Shown in pieces: positions 1 through 22,483 of a DNA stretch of 64,000 nt. The notes beneath the pieces are model-generated. The model was given only the letters and a program-made list of their open reading frames with translations. It did not search any database and was not told the origin of the DNA. The stretch lies in assembly GCA_002787235.1 (NCBI GenBank), contig PCWG01000032.1, positions 62,001 through 126,000 on the forward strand, in the 5' to 3' direction. Numbering within the stretch: the stretch's first letter is position 1; each line of letters opens with the position of its first letter. Position numbers and translations under genes: made by a program. The DNA comes from Nitrospinae bacterium CG11_big_fil_rev_8_21_14_0_20_45_15 (GTDB lineage Bacteria > Nitrospinota > Nitrospinia > Nitrospinales > VA-1).

Positions 1-914
1 GAGCATGCCAGGTCGCGCAAAGACCAGCCCCAAATATCAGCGGGTCTTACCAGTATGGCAAGGTTGACCGAATTGCGGCGAAGGCAGATGGGACACCGAC
101 AGCGGGGACGATCAGTCAATCCGAAACTACATTGCTGGGGTCGAGCGGTTATGCCTCTCATTTAAGCGGAGTATCCACAGGCGCGGGTGGGGCGATGTAT
201 TGGCGGTATCGGATCGAGTCGCGGGACGTCCAGCGTTTTATAAGTCAGGCCGGGATATTTTCTGCGAAGGTTTATCACAACGTTGGGTCGGCGCAAAATT
301 TCACGATCACGATCAACAAGGCAAATGCAAAAGACGATTTTTCGGCAGTCACTTTGATCTCCGCGTCGGGGAATTTGAGCGTTGAGGATGCGACGGAGAC
401 GGCGATAGAATTCGCCGTTGCTGACTTGGCGAGTTGCGGCAATGGGATTGAGATCATCGTCAAATGTGATTGTGGTGCTGTAACGACAAAGGATTTTTAT
501 TTGGCCGATTTGCAATTTGAAAAAGGGAATGTGGCGACCGAGCTAGAGCCACGGCCGATTGCTTTGGAATTCGCAATGTGTCAGCGGTATTACCAGCAAT
601 ACGGCGAGGGGTCCAACGAAATGCTCGGGACCTCGGCGGTTCATAGCGCAACCACAGCTTTTGTGATCATCCCATTCCAAACCACTATGCGTACCACGCC
701 GACAGTGACATACGACTCGACACTGTCAAACTATCTTGTTCGCATTTCAGGCAGTAGCCAAACCCCAACCTCACTTAATAATGACGTCATCACCCCAAGG
801 ACAATGAGTATAAACATTGGCATAACAGGAGGAACGGTGGGTGATTGTTGTTTTATGTATTCGCCCCCTGCGGATGGGATCAGTGGTCTTATTAAGTTAA
901 GCGCAGAGCTATAA
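1..914 (+). CDS. Phage tail-fibre-like protein, 3' part (5' end outside window)
   Basis: The reading frame is open from base 3 at the left edge and ends at the TAA at 912-914, so about 303 C-terminal residues are visible and the start lies outside the window. The early segment around 'SYQYGKVDRIAAKADGTPT' and the later 'LEPRPIALEFAMCQRYYQ' resemble segments common in tail-fibre and receptor-binding proteins of tailed phages. The C-terminus is rich in Thr, Ser and Gly, as in beta-structured fibre tips. The next gene starts 16 bp downstream and is tail-related. A TTG at 132 could be read as a start, but the coding-like sequence continues upstream of it. The exact fibre family is not determined. 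Confidence 0.72.
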   Translation, partial: ACQVAQRPAPNISGSYQYGKVDRIAAKADGTPTAGTISQSETTLLGSSGYASHLSGVSTGAGGAMYWRYRIESRDVQRFISQAGIFSAKVYHNVGSAQNFTITINKANAKDDFSAVTLISASGNLSVEDATETAIEFAVADLASCGNGIEIIVKCDCGAVTTKDFYLADLQFEKGNVATELEPRPIALEFAMCQRYYQQYGEGSNEMLGTSAVHSATTAFVIIPFQTTMRTTPTVTYDSTLSNYLVRISGSSQTPTSLNNDVITPRTMSINIGITGGTVGDCCFMYSPPADGISGLIKLSAEL

Positions 915-929
915 GAGAGGATATCAAAA

Positions 930-1349
930 ATGTCAAAGTACAAAATAATCAATGCCCCCAATATTTTGAATACAGAAACAGGCGCGCAAATTCCCAACGA
1001 TCCAGCAAATGCGGACTGGCAAGAATATCAGGAATGGTTGACCGATCCCGCAAATACTCCCGATCCTGCTGATGCGGTCGTAGTGACAGCGGATATGATT
1101 AAAACGGAAGCGCGTCGGCGTATCCTTGAGAAATATCCCGAATGGAAACAGGCGAATCTGACCGCGCGCATGGTGGAGCTGAACAAGATCCGTGCCAGTG
1201 TGGGCAGTTGGACCGCTGGCGAGCAGATGGAGGTCGATGCCATCCAGTCGGCCTGGGATTGGGTCAAGTCCGTGCGTTCCGCATCCGATGCGCTGGAGCT
1301 GATCCTGCCGGTGGATTATCAGGACAACAGCTATTGGCCTGCGTTCTAA
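930..1349 (+). CDS. Phage tail assembly chaperone-like protein
   Basis: This 139-residue protein begins at an ATG preceded by an AGAGAGG-type ribosome binding site. The N-terminal part contains 'IPNDPANADWQEYQEWL', a segment typical of small proteins encoded directly after tail-fibre genes and annotated as tail or fibre assembly chaperones. The C-terminal half is charged and helical and includes 'DWVKSVRSASDAL'. Its position directly behind the tail fibre supports a role in folding or attaching the fibre. I infer the function from this pattern and context; no catalytic motif is present. Confidence 0.65.
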   Translation: MSKYKIINAPNILNTETGAQIPNDPANADWQEYQEWLTDPANTPDPADAVVVTADMIKTEARRRILEKYPEWKQANLTARMVELNKIRASVGSWTAGEQMEVDAIQSAWDWVKSVRSASDALELILPVDYQDNSYWPAF

Positions 1350-2167: not shown

Positions 2168-3055
2168 TTACAGTTCTTTCCAGGCTCCTATGATGCGTCC
2201 GACGATGGGGTCGGGCTCTTCTGCCAGATTGATGATCTGCACTTCGGAGATGGGATTAATGGGCCGCAGGATGAGCAGTTCTTTATGGACCTCCAGGTAT
2301 TTTGCGGTCAATCCTTCCTGATAGTAGATGGCGAATATTTTATTTTTCTGGATGCTTTTGTCGTCGCGATCGATCACCACAATATCGCCAGAATGCAACA
2401 TGGGCTCCATCGACTGTCCATCGACCCGGCTCGCAACCAGGTTACTGCGTTTGCCAGCGGCGCGGATGTGGAGCAGGACATAGTCTTCGACATTGTCTTC
2501 CTGAATGATGGGCTGACCGGCGGCGATGAACGAATCGGTGAGCGGGATGGAGACATAGTCCTCGGCAGAAATTTTGGGCGTCGTCCGCGTGCTGGTGGAT
2601 TTGAAAACCTTGAGTTCTGGAACCGGGGCATGCTGTTGCTCGGTGATGAAAAAATACTGCGGCAAAACATCCAAAGCCTGTGCGAGTGCCGCAATTTCCT
2701 TTGTGGATAAAGGCCAGGCTCCCTCTTCGATCAAGTCGTAAAGGGTCAAACTCAATCCCATTTTTTCTGCAAGTTGTTCGCGGCTCCAGCCTTTATTTTT
2801 CCGAAAAAAAACAATATTTTTTACCACCGTTTTTAACAGGGTCGTTTTTTTGACCTGCCCCGCCACCAGCCATTGCAGGTTGACGCCCGAGTGCCGGGCA
2901 ATCTTTTCCAGTGTGGCGGAGCCGGGAGCGCGACGGCGCGAGATGGATTTTTGCATGGCGGGATAGTTCAGGCCGCAGTCCTTGCAGAAATCGACCAGCG
3001 ATTGCTTTCCCTTCAGAGACTCTATTCGATTGAGAATGTTTTCTTCGTCGTTCAA
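2168..3055 (-). CDS. Phage repressor, two HTH domains plus S24 peptidase (CI/LexA type)
   Basis: This 295-residue protein should hold the prophage in lysogeny and be inactivated by RecA-stimulated self-cleavage. Residues about 1-70 look like a CI-type helix-turn-helix (LEKIARHSGVNLQWLVAG). Residues about 75-140 form a second XRE helix-turn-helix (WSREQLAEKMGLSLTLYD). Residues about 165-295 are a LexA/S24 domain with a cleavage-type Ala-Gly in 'SFIAAGQP', the catalytic Ser in 'VDGQSMEPML' and a Lys in 'LTAKYLEV'. The start is TTG with AGGGGT 9 bases upstream. The gene is divergent from the early operon at 3243, and the region between them is the likely operator. Confidence 0.88.
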   Translation of the reverse strand: MNDEENILNRIESLKGKQSLVDFCKDCGLNYPAMQKSISRRRAPGSATLEKIARHSGVNLQWLVAGQVKKTTLLKTVVKNIVFFRKNKGWSREQLAEKMGLSLTLYDLIEEGAWPLSTKEIAALAQALDVLPQYFFITEQQHAPVPELKVFKSTSTRTTPKISAEDYVSIPLTDSFIAAGQPIIQEDNVEDYVLLHIRAAGKRSNLVASRVDGQSMEPMLHSGDIVVIDRDDKSIQKNKIFAIYYQEGLTAKYLEVHKELLILRPINPISEVQIINLAEEPDPIVGRIIGAWKEL

Positions 3056-3075
3056 GGCAAGGGCACCCCTGTATT

Positions 3076-3130
3076 ATTTTCGCTTAATTTTCGCTTTTTG
3101 GTTGACAGTAAGAGAATTTTGTCCGATATT
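3076..3130 (+). promoter_or_regulatory. Early promoter with tandem operator-like repeats
   Basis: Two copies of ATTTTCGCTT lie at 3076-3085 and 3087-3096, spaced one helical turn (11 bp) apart. Immediately downstream TTGACA (3102-3107) is followed after 17 bp by GATATT (3125-3130), a plausible sigma70 promoter reading toward 3243. The arrangement fits a repressor-controlled early phage promoter. The binding protein is inferred to be the divergent repressor. Confidence 0.5.
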
Positions 3131-3242
3131 GATATTCGGAAGTAGACAAATGGCTTTTATTTTCAGATCGGGTTCATGGTCTCACAAATTCAAACGGAGT
3201 GACTTCCGTTCTTTGGTTAATGTTCAGAATAGGGGAAGGATT

Positions 3243-13800: not shown

Positions 13801-13869
13801 CCGATTCAAGCCACGATTCACCACATGATAAACTGCACCCGGAAACTCAATGCATAAAGGTTGGCTCAT
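13801..13869 (-). pseudogene. REP-associated (Y1) transposase, 5' fragment, left copy
   Basis: Reading leftward from the ATG at 13869, 23 codons encode 'MSQPLCIEFPGAVYHV', then 'VNRGLNR', and then leave the family sequence at 13801 and hit a stop within two codons. This is the conserved N-terminus of IS200-like REP-associated tyrosine transposases, normally over 200 residues. The catalytic His-X-His and Tyr are missing, so it cannot be active. An inverted partner copy lies at 16420. Confidence 0.75.
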
Positions 13870-13923
13870 GATCTTAGAATAAACATTATGCCACCTGTAG
13901 TCAAGAACGGACTTGACCCCTTT
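13801..13923 (-). repeat. Left arm of 123-bp inverted repeat (REP plus transposase 5' end)
   Basis: The reverse complement of 13801-13923 aligns without gaps to 16366-16488, with about 110 of 123 bases identical by my count. It contains the GTCAAG-N6-CTTGAC palindrome (13900-13917), a 30-bp leader and the first 23 codons of the transposase. The two arms face inward and enclose the IS3 remnant and three AT-rich genes. Confidence 0.8.
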
Positions 13924-13928
13924 ACTTT

Positions 13929-14039
13929 ATGACCCCTTTATTTTTTGAATATATCGAAGTGTTTTACAATAGGGAGCGTCGTCATTCGCACTTGGGCTAT
14001 CTCAGCCCGGCAGACTTTGAGAAGCAACATGCGGCCTAA
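13929..14039 (+). pseudogene. IS3-family transposase OrfB, C-terminal remnant
   Basis: The last 36 codons of an IS3/IS150-type transposase are present: 'YIEVFYNRERRHSHLGYLSP' is the typical C-terminal segment, ending 'ADFEKQHAA' and TAA at 14037-14039. The rest of the element, including the DDE catalytic core, is absent. The following bases (about 14045-14070) probably include the former right end of the insertion sequence. It begins immediately inside the left inverted-repeat arm. Confidence 0.8.
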
Positions 14040-14217
14040 CTTCGTGTCCACATATTCCGGGTAAGATCATTGCTTCAATTGCCCTAGATTTAATAAATCG
14101 ATTAATTATTGTGCCTACCAATGTGATAAGATAAGATTCATATCACAATTTTATCAAAAAAAAGAATATTAAAACTTAATATTTTCTAAGCAACTAAACT
14201 ATGGTAGCTAAATTAAA

Positions 14218-15027
14218 ATGTTTTTAAATATTGAGAATAAAGCAATAGAATCTTTTAATAGGCATTTTCTTGAAGGCGTACATTGTGAAATTGAATTCTC
14301 AGAGGTCACATCCGAGACTTTAATTAACAATGAAGAGGCGTTCAAGCGCGAATTTAATAGAATTGGATTTGCGAGTTTTAAAAAAATAAAGGAAAATTCA
14401 TTTGCCATTGAGGCCACAGGGGAAAGTGGCAACATTATTACATCGGTTAATCAACAAGGCAAATTTAAAGGATATTTGTGGGAAAGTGCAGACCCCAAAC
14501 GGAATGTTCAAATTAATCTGACTCAGCTTCTAACGTCCGATTATTCCTACAGTGGATTTGACAATTTTCATTCAAATTTAAATGCGGAATTGAAGATAAT
14601 TGAAGAACTGTTGGGAAAGCGCACAGTTAAAAAAATTGGCTTAAAAAAAGTCAATAAAATTCAGATTAGTAGTGTCCAATCTGTTGAAGATATAGGTATA
14701 TTATTTAATTCAAATTTGTTAGGCGGCGTAAGAAGCGGAATTGGAGAAATAGAAGATACTGTATTCACAGAAGAAAAACTCGTTTTTAAAAAAGAACAGA
14801 TTGTCGCCATTTTGACAATTAGTTTAAGTAAAATTAAAGAAAATGTGTTTGGAGTTAAGTTAGAATTAGATTGTATTTGCCTATCAGAATTTGACTCAAT
14901 TGATAAAGTGAATGAGACACTTTCTAAAATAAATCAATTTCAGTATAACTTATTCAACTGGTCGATCACTGAAGATTTTATTAAAATTTTGAGGTCATCT
15001 GATGACGAGTCTATTAACATTTCCTGA
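14218..15027 (+). CDS. TIGR04255-like protein, first gene of accessory cassette
   Basis: This protein has 269 residues and AT-rich codons unlike the neighbouring conserved genes. The early 'LEGVHCEIEFSEVTSETL' and the late 'LSKINQFQYNLFNWSITEDF' match the layout I know for the sporadically distributed TIGR04255 family: an N-terminal ferredoxin-like strand region, and a C-terminal helix with Phe and a Thr-Glu pair. The function of that family is unknown. No signal peptide or membrane segment is seen. The coding end overlaps the next gene by 26 bases, showing translational coupling. The binding site upstream of this ATG is weak. Confidence 0.6.
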   Translation: MFLNIENKAIESFNRHFLEGVHCEIEFSEVTSETLINNEEAFKREFNRIGFASFKKIKENSFAIEATGESGNIITSVNQQGKFKGYLWESADPKRNVQINLTQLLTSDYSYSGFDNFHSNLNAELKIIEELLGKRTVKKIGLKKVNKIQISSVQSVEDIGILFNSNLLGGVRSGIGEIEDTVFTEEKLVFKKEQIVAILTISLSKIKENVFGVKLELDCICLSEFDSIDKVNETLSKINQFQYNLFNWSITEDFIKILRSSDDESINIS

Positions 15028-15742
15028 GACTGAAGTTACCGAACCAATATCGAGTCTATCGACATTTTCCGAGACTGAATTTGACAAAATGTTTAATCCA
15101 TCTGAATTCAAGATTAATGTTGTCTTGAATAGGATTATTCCTAAAAAACTTAAATTGGGTGTCCAGAAAAAAGATGTCCACAAAAGAAAATACATAATTT
15201 TTAATGAAGCTATTAATGCTGATAATTTAGAAAGAGGCTTCAAAGAGGATGCTTCTCTATTGATCCCTTTTATATCGAAAAATAACTTTTACTCCCAAGA
15301 AACCAATTTCGTTTTACATACTAAAATAACAGATATTAATGAATCTGATAATCATACAGATCTGTGGAACGATGTTGATAAATTTAACAATACCTATTTA
15401 GCAAGCAAAGCCAGAATTAAGTCTTTTAAAGAAATAGGTGAAAATTGGGATTCAATGGGTAGTGCTGCGCCAAGTGAATTATCAATTCGAAATGCGCTGT
15501 TTGCGTTAGAGTTGTTGAAAGATAGTATGATTTTCCCAAATTCAATTAATCCATCCTCCGATGAAGGAATTGTTTTTGAGTTTAGTCTGAATAAAAATTA
15601 TTTTATCTTTGAGTTTTACAACGATGGGGACATAGTTTTTCTAAAAGACATAAAGGATGGTTCAGTTAGTGAACCAATGGCATTTGATATTAGTTCAAGT
15701 GAAATTAAAGAAAAAATCCGTGAAATTAACACAATCGATTAG
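15002..15742 (+). CDS. Hypothetical protein, second gene of accessory cassette
   Basis: This 246-residue protein begins at the ATG at 15002, with GAGG 7 bases upstream inside the preceding gene. The C-terminal half has 'ENWDSMGSAAPSELSIRNA', then 'DEGIVFEFSLNKNYFIFEFY', a module I have seen in proteins encoded beside TIGR04255 genes: a Trp-Asp-x-x-Gly motif, an Ala-containing helix, then a beta hairpin. The N-terminal half is not recognised. An unusual direct repeat of residues near the start (LTFPETEVTEPIS and STFSETEFD) suggests a small internal duplication. No enzymatic function can be assigned. Confidence 0.6.
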   Translation: MTSLLTFPETEVTEPISSLSTFSETEFDKMFNPSEFKINVVLNRIIPKKLKLGVQKKDVHKRKYIIFNEAINADNLERGFKEDASLLIPFISKNNFYSQETNFVLHTKITDINESDNHTDLWNDVDKFNNTYLASKARIKSFKEIGENWDSMGSAAPSELSIRNALFALELLKDSMIFPNSINPSSDEGIVFEFSLNKNYFIFEFYNDGDIVFLKDIKDGSVSEPMAFDISSSEIKEKIREINTID

Positions 15743-15749
15743 ACGTTTA

Positions 15750-16253
15750 ATGAAATTGTGTGACCCCCACTGCAAGAAAAAAAAAATTCCTCAACATTTG
15801 CATCAGAATGGCAGATTAGCTGATCCGTCATTTGATAGAAATGAGCGTATTTATATTAGGTTTCGGGAATTTGAAGATAATAAACCTACTTTATGCGATG
15901 GAAAAGTTAGTGCGGCAATATTTAAAACCGAGAAGCAGTCCTCGAATAGAGAAAAATATTCAAAATCACCCACAGATGTTTTGTTTGAAACTAATGGAGA
16001 TCACAAATTTTCATGGGGAATTGTCGAATTGATGTCCAGAGAAATTTGTGAAACCACTTTTCCGCATCCCAATACAGAAACTTCATATTCGTTTAGAGTT
16101 ATTCATGATCCGGTACAATGTATGTATCCGCATTCCGAGATAAGGATTTTCGAAAATGGAAATTTGGTTGAATCCATTAAGCCCAAATCTGTTAAAAATT
16201 TGATTAAATATAAATGGAGAGAAATAAGTTCTGTTTTGAAGAAACCAAGTTAA
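15750..16253 (+). CDS. Hypothetical His/Cys-containing protein, third gene of cassette
   Basis: This 167-residue protein begins at the ATG at 15750, only 7 bases after the preceding stop. An open frame reaches further upstream inside the second gene but is less likely to be used. The start has 'KLCDPHCKKKKIPQHLHQNG', with two Cys and several His that could bind metal. The middle has 'NREKYSKSPTDVLFETNG' and the later part 'FRVIHDPVQCMYPHSEIRI'. The conserved look of the His-Asp-Pro and Met-Tyr-Pro-His motifs suggests an enzyme or a specific binding protein. I do not recognise a named family. Confidence 0.55.
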   Translation: MKLCDPHCKKKKIPQHLHQNGRLADPSFDRNERIYIRFREFEDNKPTLCDGKVSAAIFKTEKQSSNREKYSKSPTDVLFETNGDHKFSWGIVELMSREICETTFPHPNTETSYSFRVIHDPVQCMYPHSEIRIFENGNLVESIKPKSVKNLIKYKWREISSVLKKPS

Positions 16254-16365
16254 TACTACTTTTCACATCATCCAATTTACCCCTCCTCCAAAAGCTGTAA
16301 TTATAAAAATCTATGCGAAGAATATGTTGAAATTGACAATTCAACACAAAAAAAAGGGGTCAAGA

Positions 16366-16488
16366 AAAGGGGTCAAGTCCGTTCTTGACGACAGTTTGTG
16401 TAATGTTTATTCTAAGATCATGAGCCGACCTTTACATATTGAGTTTCCGGGTGCAGTTTATCATGTAATGAATCGTGGGCTGAATCGG
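16366..16488 (+). repeat. Right arm of 123-bp inverted repeat (REP plus transposase 5' end)
   Basis: This is the partner of 13801-13923 in opposite orientation. The palindrome core GTCAAG-N6-CTTGAC is at 16372-16389, preceded by an additional partial AAAAGGGGTCAAG at about 16353-16364. The arm covers the leader and the first 23 codons of the transposase fragment. Confidence 0.8.
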
Positions 16489-16566
16489 AACTCTATCTTT
16501 CTCGAAAATAAAAATTATGAGCTGTTCGGGGAAACCCTTGAGCAGGGTTGCCGCTTTTTTGAGTAG
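16420..16566 (+). pseudogene. REP-associated (Y1) transposase, 5' fragment, right copy
   Basis: From the ATG at 16420, family-like sequence runs for about 36 codons (MSRPLHIEFPGAVYHV, then 'MNRGLNRNSIFLENKNYELF'). It then changes to an unrelated short tail ending at TAG 16564-16566. The catalytic region is missing. The break near 16527 probably marks the junction with the DNA downstream of mnmE. Confidence 0.75.
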
Positions 16567-16614: not shown

Positions 16615-18021
16615 TTATTTTCCGATACAGAATTCATTGAAGATTTGATCGAGCAGGTCTTCATCGAAATTCTTGCCGACGATCCCGCCCAAATGATCCA
16701 TGGCCATTTGCACATCCACGGCCACAAATTCTTCTGACAACTGATTTTCCACCGACTCCCGGGCGCGTTCAAGGGCTTCCAGTGTTTGCGCTAAAGCGGA
16801 ACGATGCCGCTCGCGGCTGATGACGATGGATTCGCTGGCGTGTTCTCCCTTCGCCACTTTTTCGTAAATCGCGTCTTTCAAAGCTTCCAGTCCTTCGAGA
16901 GATTTGGCGGAGATGGATAGCAGGGGGGTCCCGGCAAGTCGTTGCTTCAAATCACTGTGATCGAGTTTTGCGGGCAGATCGGTTTTGTTCAATACTGCGA
17001 TGCGTACTTTATTTTCGACGACGCAAAGCAGGAGTCGGTCGCTTTCATCCAGAGGTCGGGACTGGTCGAACAGGACCACAGCGAGATCGGCTTCCTTCAG
17101 TGCGTTGCGGGCGCGTTCGATGCCGATTTCTTCGATGGCTTCGGGATTGTCGCGCAGGCCGGCGGAGTCGATCAGGTTGATGTGAATGTCGCGCAGGCGG
17201 ATGCTTTCTTCCAACAGGTCGCGTGTGGTGCCGGAGTGCGGAGTAACGATGGCGCGTTCTTCATCGAGAAGCGCGTTCATGAGACTGGATTTTCCAACAT
17301 TGGGTTTGCCTATGAGCAGGACGCGCGCGCCTTCACGAAAAATTTTCCCCTGCCGATAGGTGCCAAGCAGTTGGGTGATGCTGGATTGGATGGCCCCGAT
17401 CTTGCGAAGCAACTCGGCCTGCTGAACAAATTTCAAATCATCTTCGGGGAAATCAATCGCGGCTGATAATTGGGACAGGACGGCGAGCACATCGTCGTAC
17501 AAATCGGAAAGTTTTTTGGAGAGATTGCCTTTCAATTGCGCGGTCGCCGTCTTCAGGGCCTGATCGGATGCGGAATGTATGACGTCGATGACGGCTTCGG
17601 CCTGGGAAAGATCGATGCGACCGTTCACAAAGGCGCGCCGGGTAAATTCTCCGGGTTCCGCCATTCGCGCTCCTGCTTCGAGAGTTCTTTGCAGGACTTT
17701 CAGGGAAACGTATTGTCCGCCATGCACACAAATTTCGACGACATCTTCGGCGGTGTAACTTTTGGGAGCTTTGAACCAGGTGAGGATGGCCTCGTCGATG
17801 CAAGTGCCTTCGGCAGAACGGAGTTCGCCAAAATAGGCCTTTTGGGGCACCATCTTTTCACTGAGGGGTTTTCCGTTTGCCTTGACGAACAGGGCGCGGG
17901 CGATGGTCACTGCGTCGGGTCCGCTGAGCCGTATGACACTGAGTCCGCCTTCACCTTTTGGGGTGGCGATTGCGCTGATGGTATCGCCCGGCGAGCCGCC
18001 GGTGGCAATAGAACTTTCCAA
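16615..18021 (-). CDS. mnmE: tRNA modification GTPase MnmE
   Basis: This 468-residue protein works with MnmG in the cytoplasm to place the 5-carboxymethylaminomethyl group on wobble uridines of certain tRNAs. The N-terminal tetrahydrofolate-binding domain starts with 'DTISAIATPKGEGGLSVIRL'. The G domain near residues 215-380 has P-loop 'GKPNVGKS', 'SGTTRD', 'DSAGLRD' and 'NKTD'. The protein ends with the family-specific 'CIGK', whose Cys is characteristic. Length is normal for the family. It lies downstream of yidC in the usual rpmH-rnpA-yidD-yidC-mnmE order, after a 354-bp spacer. Confidence 0.97.
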   Translation of the reverse strand: MESSIATGGSPGDTISAIATPKGEGGLSVIRLSGPDAVTIARALFVKANGKPLSEKMVPQKAYFGELRSAEGTCIDEAILTWFKAPKSYTAEDVVEICVHGGQYVSLKVLQRTLEAGARMAEPGEFTRRAFVNGRIDLSQAEAVIDVIHSASDQALKTATAQLKGNLSKKLSDLYDDVLAVLSQLSAAIDFPEDDLKFVQQAELLRKIGAIQSSITQLLGTYRQGKIFREGARVLLIGKPNVGKSSLMNALLDEERAIVTPHSGTTRDLLEESIRLRDIHINLIDSAGLRDNPEAIEEIGIERARNALKEADLAVVLFDQSRPLDESDRLLLCVVENKVRIAVLNKTDLPAKLDHSDLKQRLAGTPLLSISAKSLEGLEALKDAIYEKVAKGEHASESIVISRERHRSALAQTLEALERARESVENQLSEEFVAVDVQMAMDHLGGIVGKNFDEDLLDQIFNEFCIGK

Positions 18022-21316: not shown

Positions 21317-21760
21317 CTACACGAGATTGATTTCCCATTTAGGATTTCCTCTGATTTTTTGGATACTGTTATCTGCTAAATATGCAGTTACAAACTCCCC
21401 GCTCAATCCCGACTGCGTTCTTTTCAGTCGAACAATGACCACATAGTTACCATATACAACGCTTACACGGCAATTGGGATCATTTTTTCTTTTCTTTTTA
21501 TCCCATCCACAATAAAGGTCTGCTTTGGGGTTTGTTAGGGTTTCAATTATCCAATCAATTCTCTCCGCTCTATTATTTGAAAATTGATCCTTAATATTGT
21601 TTCTTTGACTGCTTTCATAAAAGGCATGTTCAAATCTATTTTTTCTGAAAACGATAGGTATAGAATCAAATGAAATTATGGGTTTTTTGCAATAAACCCT
21701 TTCATAGTGCTTTTTATATTCTTGTTCAGTGTTGTAATGGATTAGTTTTGGAGTGGTCAC
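21317..21760 (-). CDS. Hypothetical protein, possibly BECR-fold nuclease-like, with DUF3800 gene
   Basis: This protein has 147 residues. The conserved-looking parts are 'FEHAFYESSQR', 'NRAERIDWIIETLTNPKADL', 'CRVSVVYGNYVVIVRLKR' and 'GEFVTAYLAD'. A helix with Arg, a beta hairpin with Tyr and a final 'FVTAY' strand resemble phage-type BECR (barnase/EndoU/colicin E5) ribonuclease folds, but I cannot confirm this by eye. The ATG is 3 bp after the stop of the DUF3800 gene, so the two form an operon. Codons are AT-rich. It may be a toxin, a phage-defence effector or a regulator. Confidence 0.55.
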   Translation of the reverse strand: MTTPKLIHYNTEQEYKKHYERVYCKKPIISFDSIPIVFRKNRFEHAFYESSQRNNIKDQFSNNRAERIDWIIETLTNPKADLYCGWDKKKRKNDPNCRVSVVYGNYVVIVRLKRTQSGLSGEFVTAYLADNSIQKIRGNPKWEINLV

Positions 21761-21763
21761 CGA

Positions 21764-22483
21764 TTACCAACCTCCATCCAATTTAATCTGAAAAATATTA
21801 AATTTCATTTCAGATTTACCAGTAGGTTTAAGTTGGTCTACGTCTAATCGCGATTCTATATGCCGTAAAATTTTTGACTTTGCCGAGTCTTTAGTTAGAT
21901 TGCCATTTAGGCTTGCTCCAGCGGCACCAAGTAAAAAATCGGCTAATTGAATTAAAGCTGATTCTGAAGACGGTAAAGATTGAATTGAAATAACTTTAGA
22001 AGAAAGATTGGTTTTTTGCAGACACTGCTTTAGGTCTTGTAACCGCTTAGGATTTCTATTGGTTTTAATGTCACAGAAAATGAAATAATCATTAAAATCT
22101 AATATCCAATGATGAAGTAATTGGTAGTAAAATTTATAGAAACCAAGTTCTTTATCATCATTGTGAAATAGTTGAAAGTCGACTTTACTTGCTTTTATTG
22201 CAATACAGCGAAAGCGCAAATCATGTCCAAATGACATGAACAAGTCGACTACTTCTTTATAAAAATCGAGACGTGAGTTTGATACTTTTTGCCATTTAAT
22301 CTGGCCGCCAACCTTATGGTGGTCTTTTAGTATTTTAATTCGTTTTTTAACCAATGCCCGTTGATCTGCTGGGAGCCAAATACTACCAATTAAAAGAAAC
22401 TGATCCTTTGATAGTGTTCCCGTTGTAAAAAGATCAGGTCGGCTTTCGTCGCAATAAACTTCAAATTTCACAAAACCTCTCAA
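21764..22483 (-). CDS. DUF3800 family protein
   Basis: This protein has 239 residues. It begins with a strand carrying 'VYCDES', has 'YFIFCDIKTNRNPKRLQDL' in the middle and 'IQLADFLLGAAGASLNG' near residue 190. This set of acidic residues (Asp-Glu, Asp, Asp in the order expected for an RNase H-like core) is characteristic of DUF3800, a family common in phages, islands and defence neighbourhoods and thought to be nuclease-like. Activity has not been shown for this protein. It is the upstream gene of a two-gene operon and is AT-rich. Confidence 0.78.
   Translation of the reverse strand: MRGFVKFEVYCDESRPDLFTTGTLSKDQFLLIGSIWLPADQRALVKKRIKILKDHHKVGGQIKWQKVSNSRLDFYKEVVDLFMSFGHDLRFRCIAIKASKVDFQLFHNDDKELGFYKFYYQLLHHWILDFNDYFIFCDIKTNRNPKRLQDLKQCLQKTNLSSKVISIQSLPSSESALIQLADFLLGAAGASLNGNLTKDSAKSKILRHIESRLDVDQLKPTGKSEMKFNIFQIKLDGGW

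Follow-up and report, generated by a model that had tools for sequence, protein, structure and literature searches.

The locus described here raises the question of whether three closely packed, AT-rich genes in a Nitrospinae genome act together, and whether the unit they would form belongs among the systems through which bacteria contend with phages and mobile elements. The genes, which we call A, B and C, lie in the window, the 64,000-nucleotide stretch of DNA that was analysed (Table 1). A encodes a TIGR04255 family protein, and B and C are probably divergent relatives of the families that the PADLOC library names PDC-M32A and PDC-M32B, where PDC denotes a phage defence candidate. We consider it somewhat better than even, at a probability of roughly 0.55, that the cassette represents a widespread kind (TIGR04255 with a PDC-M32A-like and a PDC-M32B-like protein) whose proteins would act as nucleic-acid sensor, coupler and effector in conflicts with phages or mobile elements.

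An open reading frame check returned the three genes as a single co-directional block with the boundaries of the original prediction, which had described genes overlapping or 7 bp apart, and both the overlap and the gap were confirmed. The AT-rich composition said to be common to them is equally plain, the block having a GC content of 31.5% (31.2-33.9% for the single genes) against 51% in both flanks. A repeat search found 150-nt inverted repeats, 84% complementary, bracketing the block. The left arm contains a truncated frame that presumably corresponds to the start of a REP-associated/IS200-type tyrosine transposase, the right arm holds the start of a truncated transposase-like frame, and a fragment adjoining the left arm resembles what we take to be the C-terminus of an IS3-family transposase. 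Each arm carries an 18-nt palindrome followed by T-rich tails, and a third, partial copy of the repeat occurs at the end of contig C39. These repeats and the IS3-type fragment support the earlier claim of mobile DNA around the genes, and the block is foreign DNA, probably acquired horizontally. An empty-site comparison drew on one genome whose contig stops ~485 bases past mnmE (G046) and one that lacks a matching neighbour gene (G047). Adjoining the A-B overlap, the start of B contains a 32-nt direct repeat (45 nt apart, 84%) that encodes a duplicated peptide around LTFPETEV / STFSETEF.

Table 1. Positions of the features discussed; coordinates refer to the window unless a locus or contig is named.
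Feature	Position	Strand	Remark
372-aa gene			left neighbour of the block
Left arm of inverted repeat	13801-13950	-	contains truncated reading frame MSQPLCIEFPGAVYHVVNRGLNR*
Palindrome GTCAAGAACGGACTTGAC, left arm	13900-13917		
Transposase-like fragment YIEVFYNRERRHSHLGYLSPADFEKQHAA*	13950-14040	+	seen in translation
Gene A, TIGR04255 family protein (269 aa)	14218-15027	+	from the ORF list
Gene B, middle protein (246 aa)	15002-15742	+	overlaps A by 26 nt
Direct repeat at start of B	15006-15082		
Gene C (167 aa)	15750-16253	+	read from ATG 15750; starts 7 nt past B
Right arm of inverted repeat	16339-16488	+	truncated frame is ORF 16324-16566
Palindrome GTCAAGAACGGACTTGAC, right arm	16372-16389		
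MnmE-like GTPase gene	16615-18021	-	right neighbour; named by eye
DUF3800 gene and 147-aa partner gene	21317-22483	-	second low-GC patch
Partial repeat copy	G000 contig C39:1-95		
L006 third gene	2549-3136		'QGDI' start, Cys-Asp motif
L009 third gene	2560-3171		'QGDI' start, Cys-Asp motif
L011 third gene	371-1033		'QGDI' start, Cys-Asp motif
L014 third gene	377-1036		'QGDI' start, Cys-Asp motif
Lone C-type gene and VapC toxin pair	L119 5893-7534		Rhizobium gallicum plasmid pRgalR602b

The first gene can be placed with confidence. Its resemblance to TIGR04255, noted at the outset, extends over the whole length of the NCBIfam profile (positions 2-251 of 252) at E 7.2e-18 and 65.3 bits against a cut-off of 30. 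In keeping with the NCBIfam label 'sporad', TIGR04255 is present in 11 of the 77 genomes of the phylum and absent from both other genomes of the genus. The tight coupling and sporadic spread on which the original prediction had leaned are both found here. As A-B-C is absent from those two genomes and from most of the phylum, it is not essential. An AlphaFold2 model of A, built with 35 relatives (pLDDT 85.5, pTM 0.81), runs through a strand, two helices, strands and a long helix, then a strand, a helix, strands and long helices. When this model was compared with the PDB using Foldseek, chains of TATA-binding protein (TBP) made up 11 of the 13 top matches, the best of them at E 1.3e-4 and probability 1.00, with a TMt of at most 0.48 and an rmsd of about 11 Å; the low full-length TM suggests that the halves are set differently from those of TBP or that only parts correspond. 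Matches in a viral library included giant-virus TFIID/TBP-like proteins. A search of A for an internal sequence repeat found none, and matches of the A profile to TFB4 (0.1) were attributed to chance. We describe the fold of A as predicted to be TBP-like.

Since bacteria are known to have TBP-like domains in RNase H3 and in a number of RNase LS proteins, we propose that A binds nucleic acid. The N-terminal domain of RNase H3 is TBP-like and binds RNA/DNA hybrids (PMC4132731), although it is a single TBP half fused to RNase H and the cassette has no RNase H. In part of the RNase LS family, the toxin-antitoxin system RnlA/RnlB, a TBP-like domain is fused to a HEPN RNase (PMC3710099); this serves only as a comparison of how such a system may work. 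RNase LS has two genes rather than three, the TBP-like part of the cassette is a separate, larger protein and C has no HEPN family match. If the predicted fold is right, a full-length relative of the archaeal and eukaryotic promoter-recognition protein would serve bacterial conflict systems, in parallel with the single TBP half of RNase H3 and of some RNase LS proteins.

The claim that the three genes form one system finds its firmest support in their recurrence elsewhere. We fetched C-type loci with a pattern built around LSVNWLE from the third gene of L017, a cassette in the same phylum, across 84,980 species at one genome per species, and obtained 70 loci from many phyla (L031 being the same contig as L012). 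TIGR04255 was sought with a profile made from proteins of the phylum and three from plasmids, independently of the fetching, and was found two genes upstream of C in 37 of the 70, at 515-808 nt from C. These 37 loci come from Thermodesulfobacteriota, Nitrospirota, Nitrospinota, Planctomycetota, Pseudomonadota, Acidobacteriota, Cloacimonadota, Calditrichota, Spirochaetota, Rhodothermota and others, and the window matches them in gene order, strand and spacing. The co-occurrence whose absence would have told against the original prediction is thus present, and the A-B-C order recurs across many phyla. B in the TIGR04255 loci is mostly 190-260 aa long and has a conserved C-terminal module, a helix followed by a G...W hairpin; the B-C junction is mostly a 4-nt overlap. 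In 63 loci the DNA upstream of C extends for 1500 nt or more; the first gene of these is TIGR04255 in 36, where a B-type gene separates it from C, another conserved gene in 9 (L041, L044, L055, L057, L058, L061, L062, L063 and L089) and neither in 18. The alternative first gene encodes a protein of ~215 aa with HNPSILNPDFL...HVPYxxLGLN and precedes the same B-C pair; its profile likeness to TIGR04255 is too weak to call the two homologous. In a Rhizobium gallicum plasmid, a lone C-type gene adjoins a VapC toxin pair near nif genes, with no A or B annotated there.

Across the phylum, most TIGR04255 genes have a pair of small co-directional genes behind them, and the identity of these partners varies. 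In L012 and L017 they encode a hairpin protein and a 'HVSRYCKP...LSVNWLE...PSHS' protein; in L006, L009, L011 and L014, a short protein and a 'QGDI...CDLS' protein of 200-220 aa, the L006 member of which matches phrog_4575, of unknown function (9.6e-20). TIGR04255 is partnered by a DUF7689 protein in L008 and by one that matches HicA weakly (0.064) in L010. On a Crinalium plasmid it stands with two hypothetical proteins, and on a Vibrio plasmid with a hypothetical protein and a zeta toxin (Pfam 3.1e-12). A HEPN reading of the L007 third gene, made from a motif by eye, was dropped for want of database support, and a scan with HP[RL]HA[NVD]I[VI] found no relatives of the L013 third gene. In a TIGR04255 tree, A of the window groups with the Nitrospinota proteins of L011 and L014 (SH-aLRT 97), which have other partners, and falls outside the bulk of TIGR04255 proteins that have B-C partners, a position made unsure by its long branch. 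If this placement is right, partners appear to have been exchanged behind one first gene. Such exchange of the third gene, among the C type, zeta toxin and others, would add to the known instances in which sensors and effectors are combined as modules.

The neighbours of some of these cassettes suggest conflict. We searched 80 proteins adjoining B-C cassettes, almost all of which include TIGR04255, against PADLOC and Pfam, and found matches to type I and type IV restriction, PglZ, Argonaute-system models and CBASS-type domains (SMODS, SLATT). In Pseudomonas benzenivorans (L066), a type I R gene, with M and S recognised by eye, is followed directly by A-B-C on one strand; in L036, A-B-C is followed by type I R and M-S genes; in L038, PglZ precedes A-B-C; and in L035, a type III methyltransferase follows it. 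As these loci were picked from the longest neighbours, they are examples and not a rate. The 80 neighbours matched 296 PADLOC models against 11 for a control of 38 window genes, a comparison that is no more than indicative, given the redundancy among the models and the small size of the control. It is in this sense that the neighbours bear on the enrichment near defence genes that had been suggested as a check; in the window itself, no known defence gene adjoins the cassette. As some cassettes lie next to or within operons for restriction or of BREX-like kind, the conflict flavour of the original prediction stands, and a role in defence would be consistent with it.

We hypothesize that A, as a TBP-like saddle protein, would bind a nucleic-acid feature that arises in phage or mobile-element attack, candidate targets being bent DNA or an RNA:DNA hybrid; that B would link A to C and keep C in check; and that C would be the effector, harming replication of the invader or the host cell. 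We call C an effector mainly because a zeta toxin holds the third place in one sister cassette. The sensing, the coupling and the anti-phage function are inferred too. A broader and more tentative extension is that TIGR04255 proteins are free-standing, two-halved TBP-like nucleic-acid sensors of bacteria, a hitherto unrecognised first component of a modular anti-phage system that takes in PDC-M32 and the sister cassettes, with coupler and effector exchanged and the window holding one of its most divergent forms; we hold this to be possible and lean somewhat against it.

The alternative that survives best is that the genes have no anti-phage role and serve to retain mobile DNA, as a toxin-antitoxin or addiction module of three parts in which C would be the toxin, B the antitoxin and A a DNA-binding autoregulator. 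Low GC, flanking inverted repeats and sporadic spread would all suit such a module, a TBP-like A could act as its regulator, the third genes of sister cassettes include the zeta toxin and the weak HicA match, and Rhizobium plasmids have a solitary C gene next to a VapC pair. However, a tblastn search with A, B, C and the L017 third gene gave no plasmid match, and the cassettes found beside or inside restriction and BREX-type operons suggest defence, so that we regard an addiction module as unlikely.

The sensor-coupler-effector reading also requires that B and C of the window be true members of their families, and here the evidence is weak and mainly positional. The original prediction gave B a Trp-Asp-X-X-Gly module followed by a beta hairpin; both are present in the window protein, as Trp-Asp-Ser-Met-Gly and a strand-rich stretch (EGIVFEFSLNKNYFIFEFYNDGDIVFL), and the hairpin is kept in the B family while Trp-Asp-X-X-Gly is not. 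The paired Cys/His motifs attributed to C fared less well, as CDPHC is not a conserved motif. The positions common to C and its relatives are H7, G21, F28, E40, H119-x-P121 and H128. H128 is invariant in 45 C relatives and lies outside the fetch pattern; the invariance of E40 among relatives arises by selection, because that residue lies inside the pattern. The LSVNW motif is missing from C of the window, in which 12 of the 33 conserved positions are retained.

Profile comparisons, each ranking the query among 301 proteins (300 decoys and the query), placed window B above its 40 shuffles and second of 301 against the B profile, one decoy scoring higher. With the C profile, window C likewise outscored its 40 shuffles and came first of 301, by the narrow margin of 22.4 to 22.1. 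The parts aligned to the family profiles were the expected ones in both, and the cross-comparisons (window C to B, window B to C, and A to either) lay at background. Plain hmmsearch gave window C 4.9 bits, below the best shuffles, and did not recover window B with the B profiles. In PADLOC, window B matches PDC-M32A at 15 bits and E 1.9e-3 (residues 137-215 to profile positions 263-341 of 375), and window C has no PDC-M32B match up to E 10; the PDC-M32B model run over the phylum gave weak matches, none of which was used. No significant Pfam, NCBIfam or PHROGs family was found for B or C, nor any Pfam match whatever for C. Used as lone queries on the 77 genomes of the phylum, neither found a convincing relative, and searches for direct relatives of both in plasmids and IMG/VR, and of C in phages, found none. 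An AlphaFold2 model of window C on an alignment with its relatives reached a pLDDT of 61.4 (67-88 over residues 81-160), and a fold search with this middling model gave a best E of 1.0, with no match. C has no catalytic family either.

Three further candidates were set aside. An N-terminal match of B in G003 (L004; 32% over 93 residues) lies inside the frame of another gene and was taken as chance; a weak PtuB match of window C (0.027) is supported by nothing else; and a Pumilio match of the C profile (7e-6, one chain) was taken as spurious, because Pumilio is an all-helical repeat protein and C has predicted alpha/beta elements.

These results bear on a second alternative, in which A alone belongs to a real system and is followed in the window, by chance, by a B and a C that have no relation to it and are either recent arrivals or genes in decay. 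Their want of a significant database family, the lack of convincing relatives for either as a lone query in the phylum and profile scores just above the decoys could all be read in this way. Such a reading sits poorly with the overlap of A and B, the short gap to C and the composition they share, with the two small genes that mostly follow TIGR04255 elsewhere, and with the fact that B and C each match the profile predicted for their place in the order, B finding its counterpart in the PADLOC library as well. We therefore consider it distinctly improbable that A stands alone, and B and C of the window probably belong to the B and C families on the combined evidence of sequence and gene order, each piece of which is weak by itself; as both proteins are very divergent, this assignment is probable and not proven. 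A housekeeping or regulatory operon that arrived with foreign DNA and is unrelated to conflict would fit the absence of a known defence gene next to the window cassette, but is very improbable given that the genes are dispensable in the genus and most of the phylum and that their composition and flanks indicate mobile DNA.

If the three genes are a sensor, coupler and effector, how much of the system was already known? The original prediction put it forward as a candidate undescribed system, and this holds in part. Among family members, B of L017 matches PDC-M32A at 2.6e-6 and C of L012 matches PDC-M32B at 0.021; like the B and C families, which match PDC-M32A (through its C-terminal module) and PDC-M32B, PDC-M32 consists of two adjacent genes. 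As these families are already named in PADLOC, the cassette is not wholly undescribed. PDC-M32, termed hypothetical (PMC12429752), is a two-gene name that leaves TIGR04255 outside it, and the window departs from it in the low score of B and the missing match of C. The TIGR04255 entry, which A matches along its full length and above the cut-off, comes without a function, whereas here the family is set in three-gene cassettes with several kinds of partner and a predicted TBP-like fold; no paper was found under the name TIGR04255 in the literature searched. The kind is thus already named, in both TIGR04255 and PDC-M32, without a function. New within the literature searched are the grouping of the three genes into one unit, a TBP-like fold predicted for TIGR04255, the proposed exchange of its partners and a far-diverged member from Nitrospinota. 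Once TIGR04255 is linked to PDC-M32, what was predicted as a pair of genes becomes a unit of three in a defined order, so that a test of B and C alone might lack the sensor.

Elsewhere in the window, some genes match the PADLOC models PDC-M04A/B, PDC-M37B, mad3 and DolB at E < 1e-28, possibly through generic domains. A second low-GC patch encodes a DUF3800 protein (Pfam 2.2e-11) and its small partner; DUF3800 genes are often found in conflict settings.
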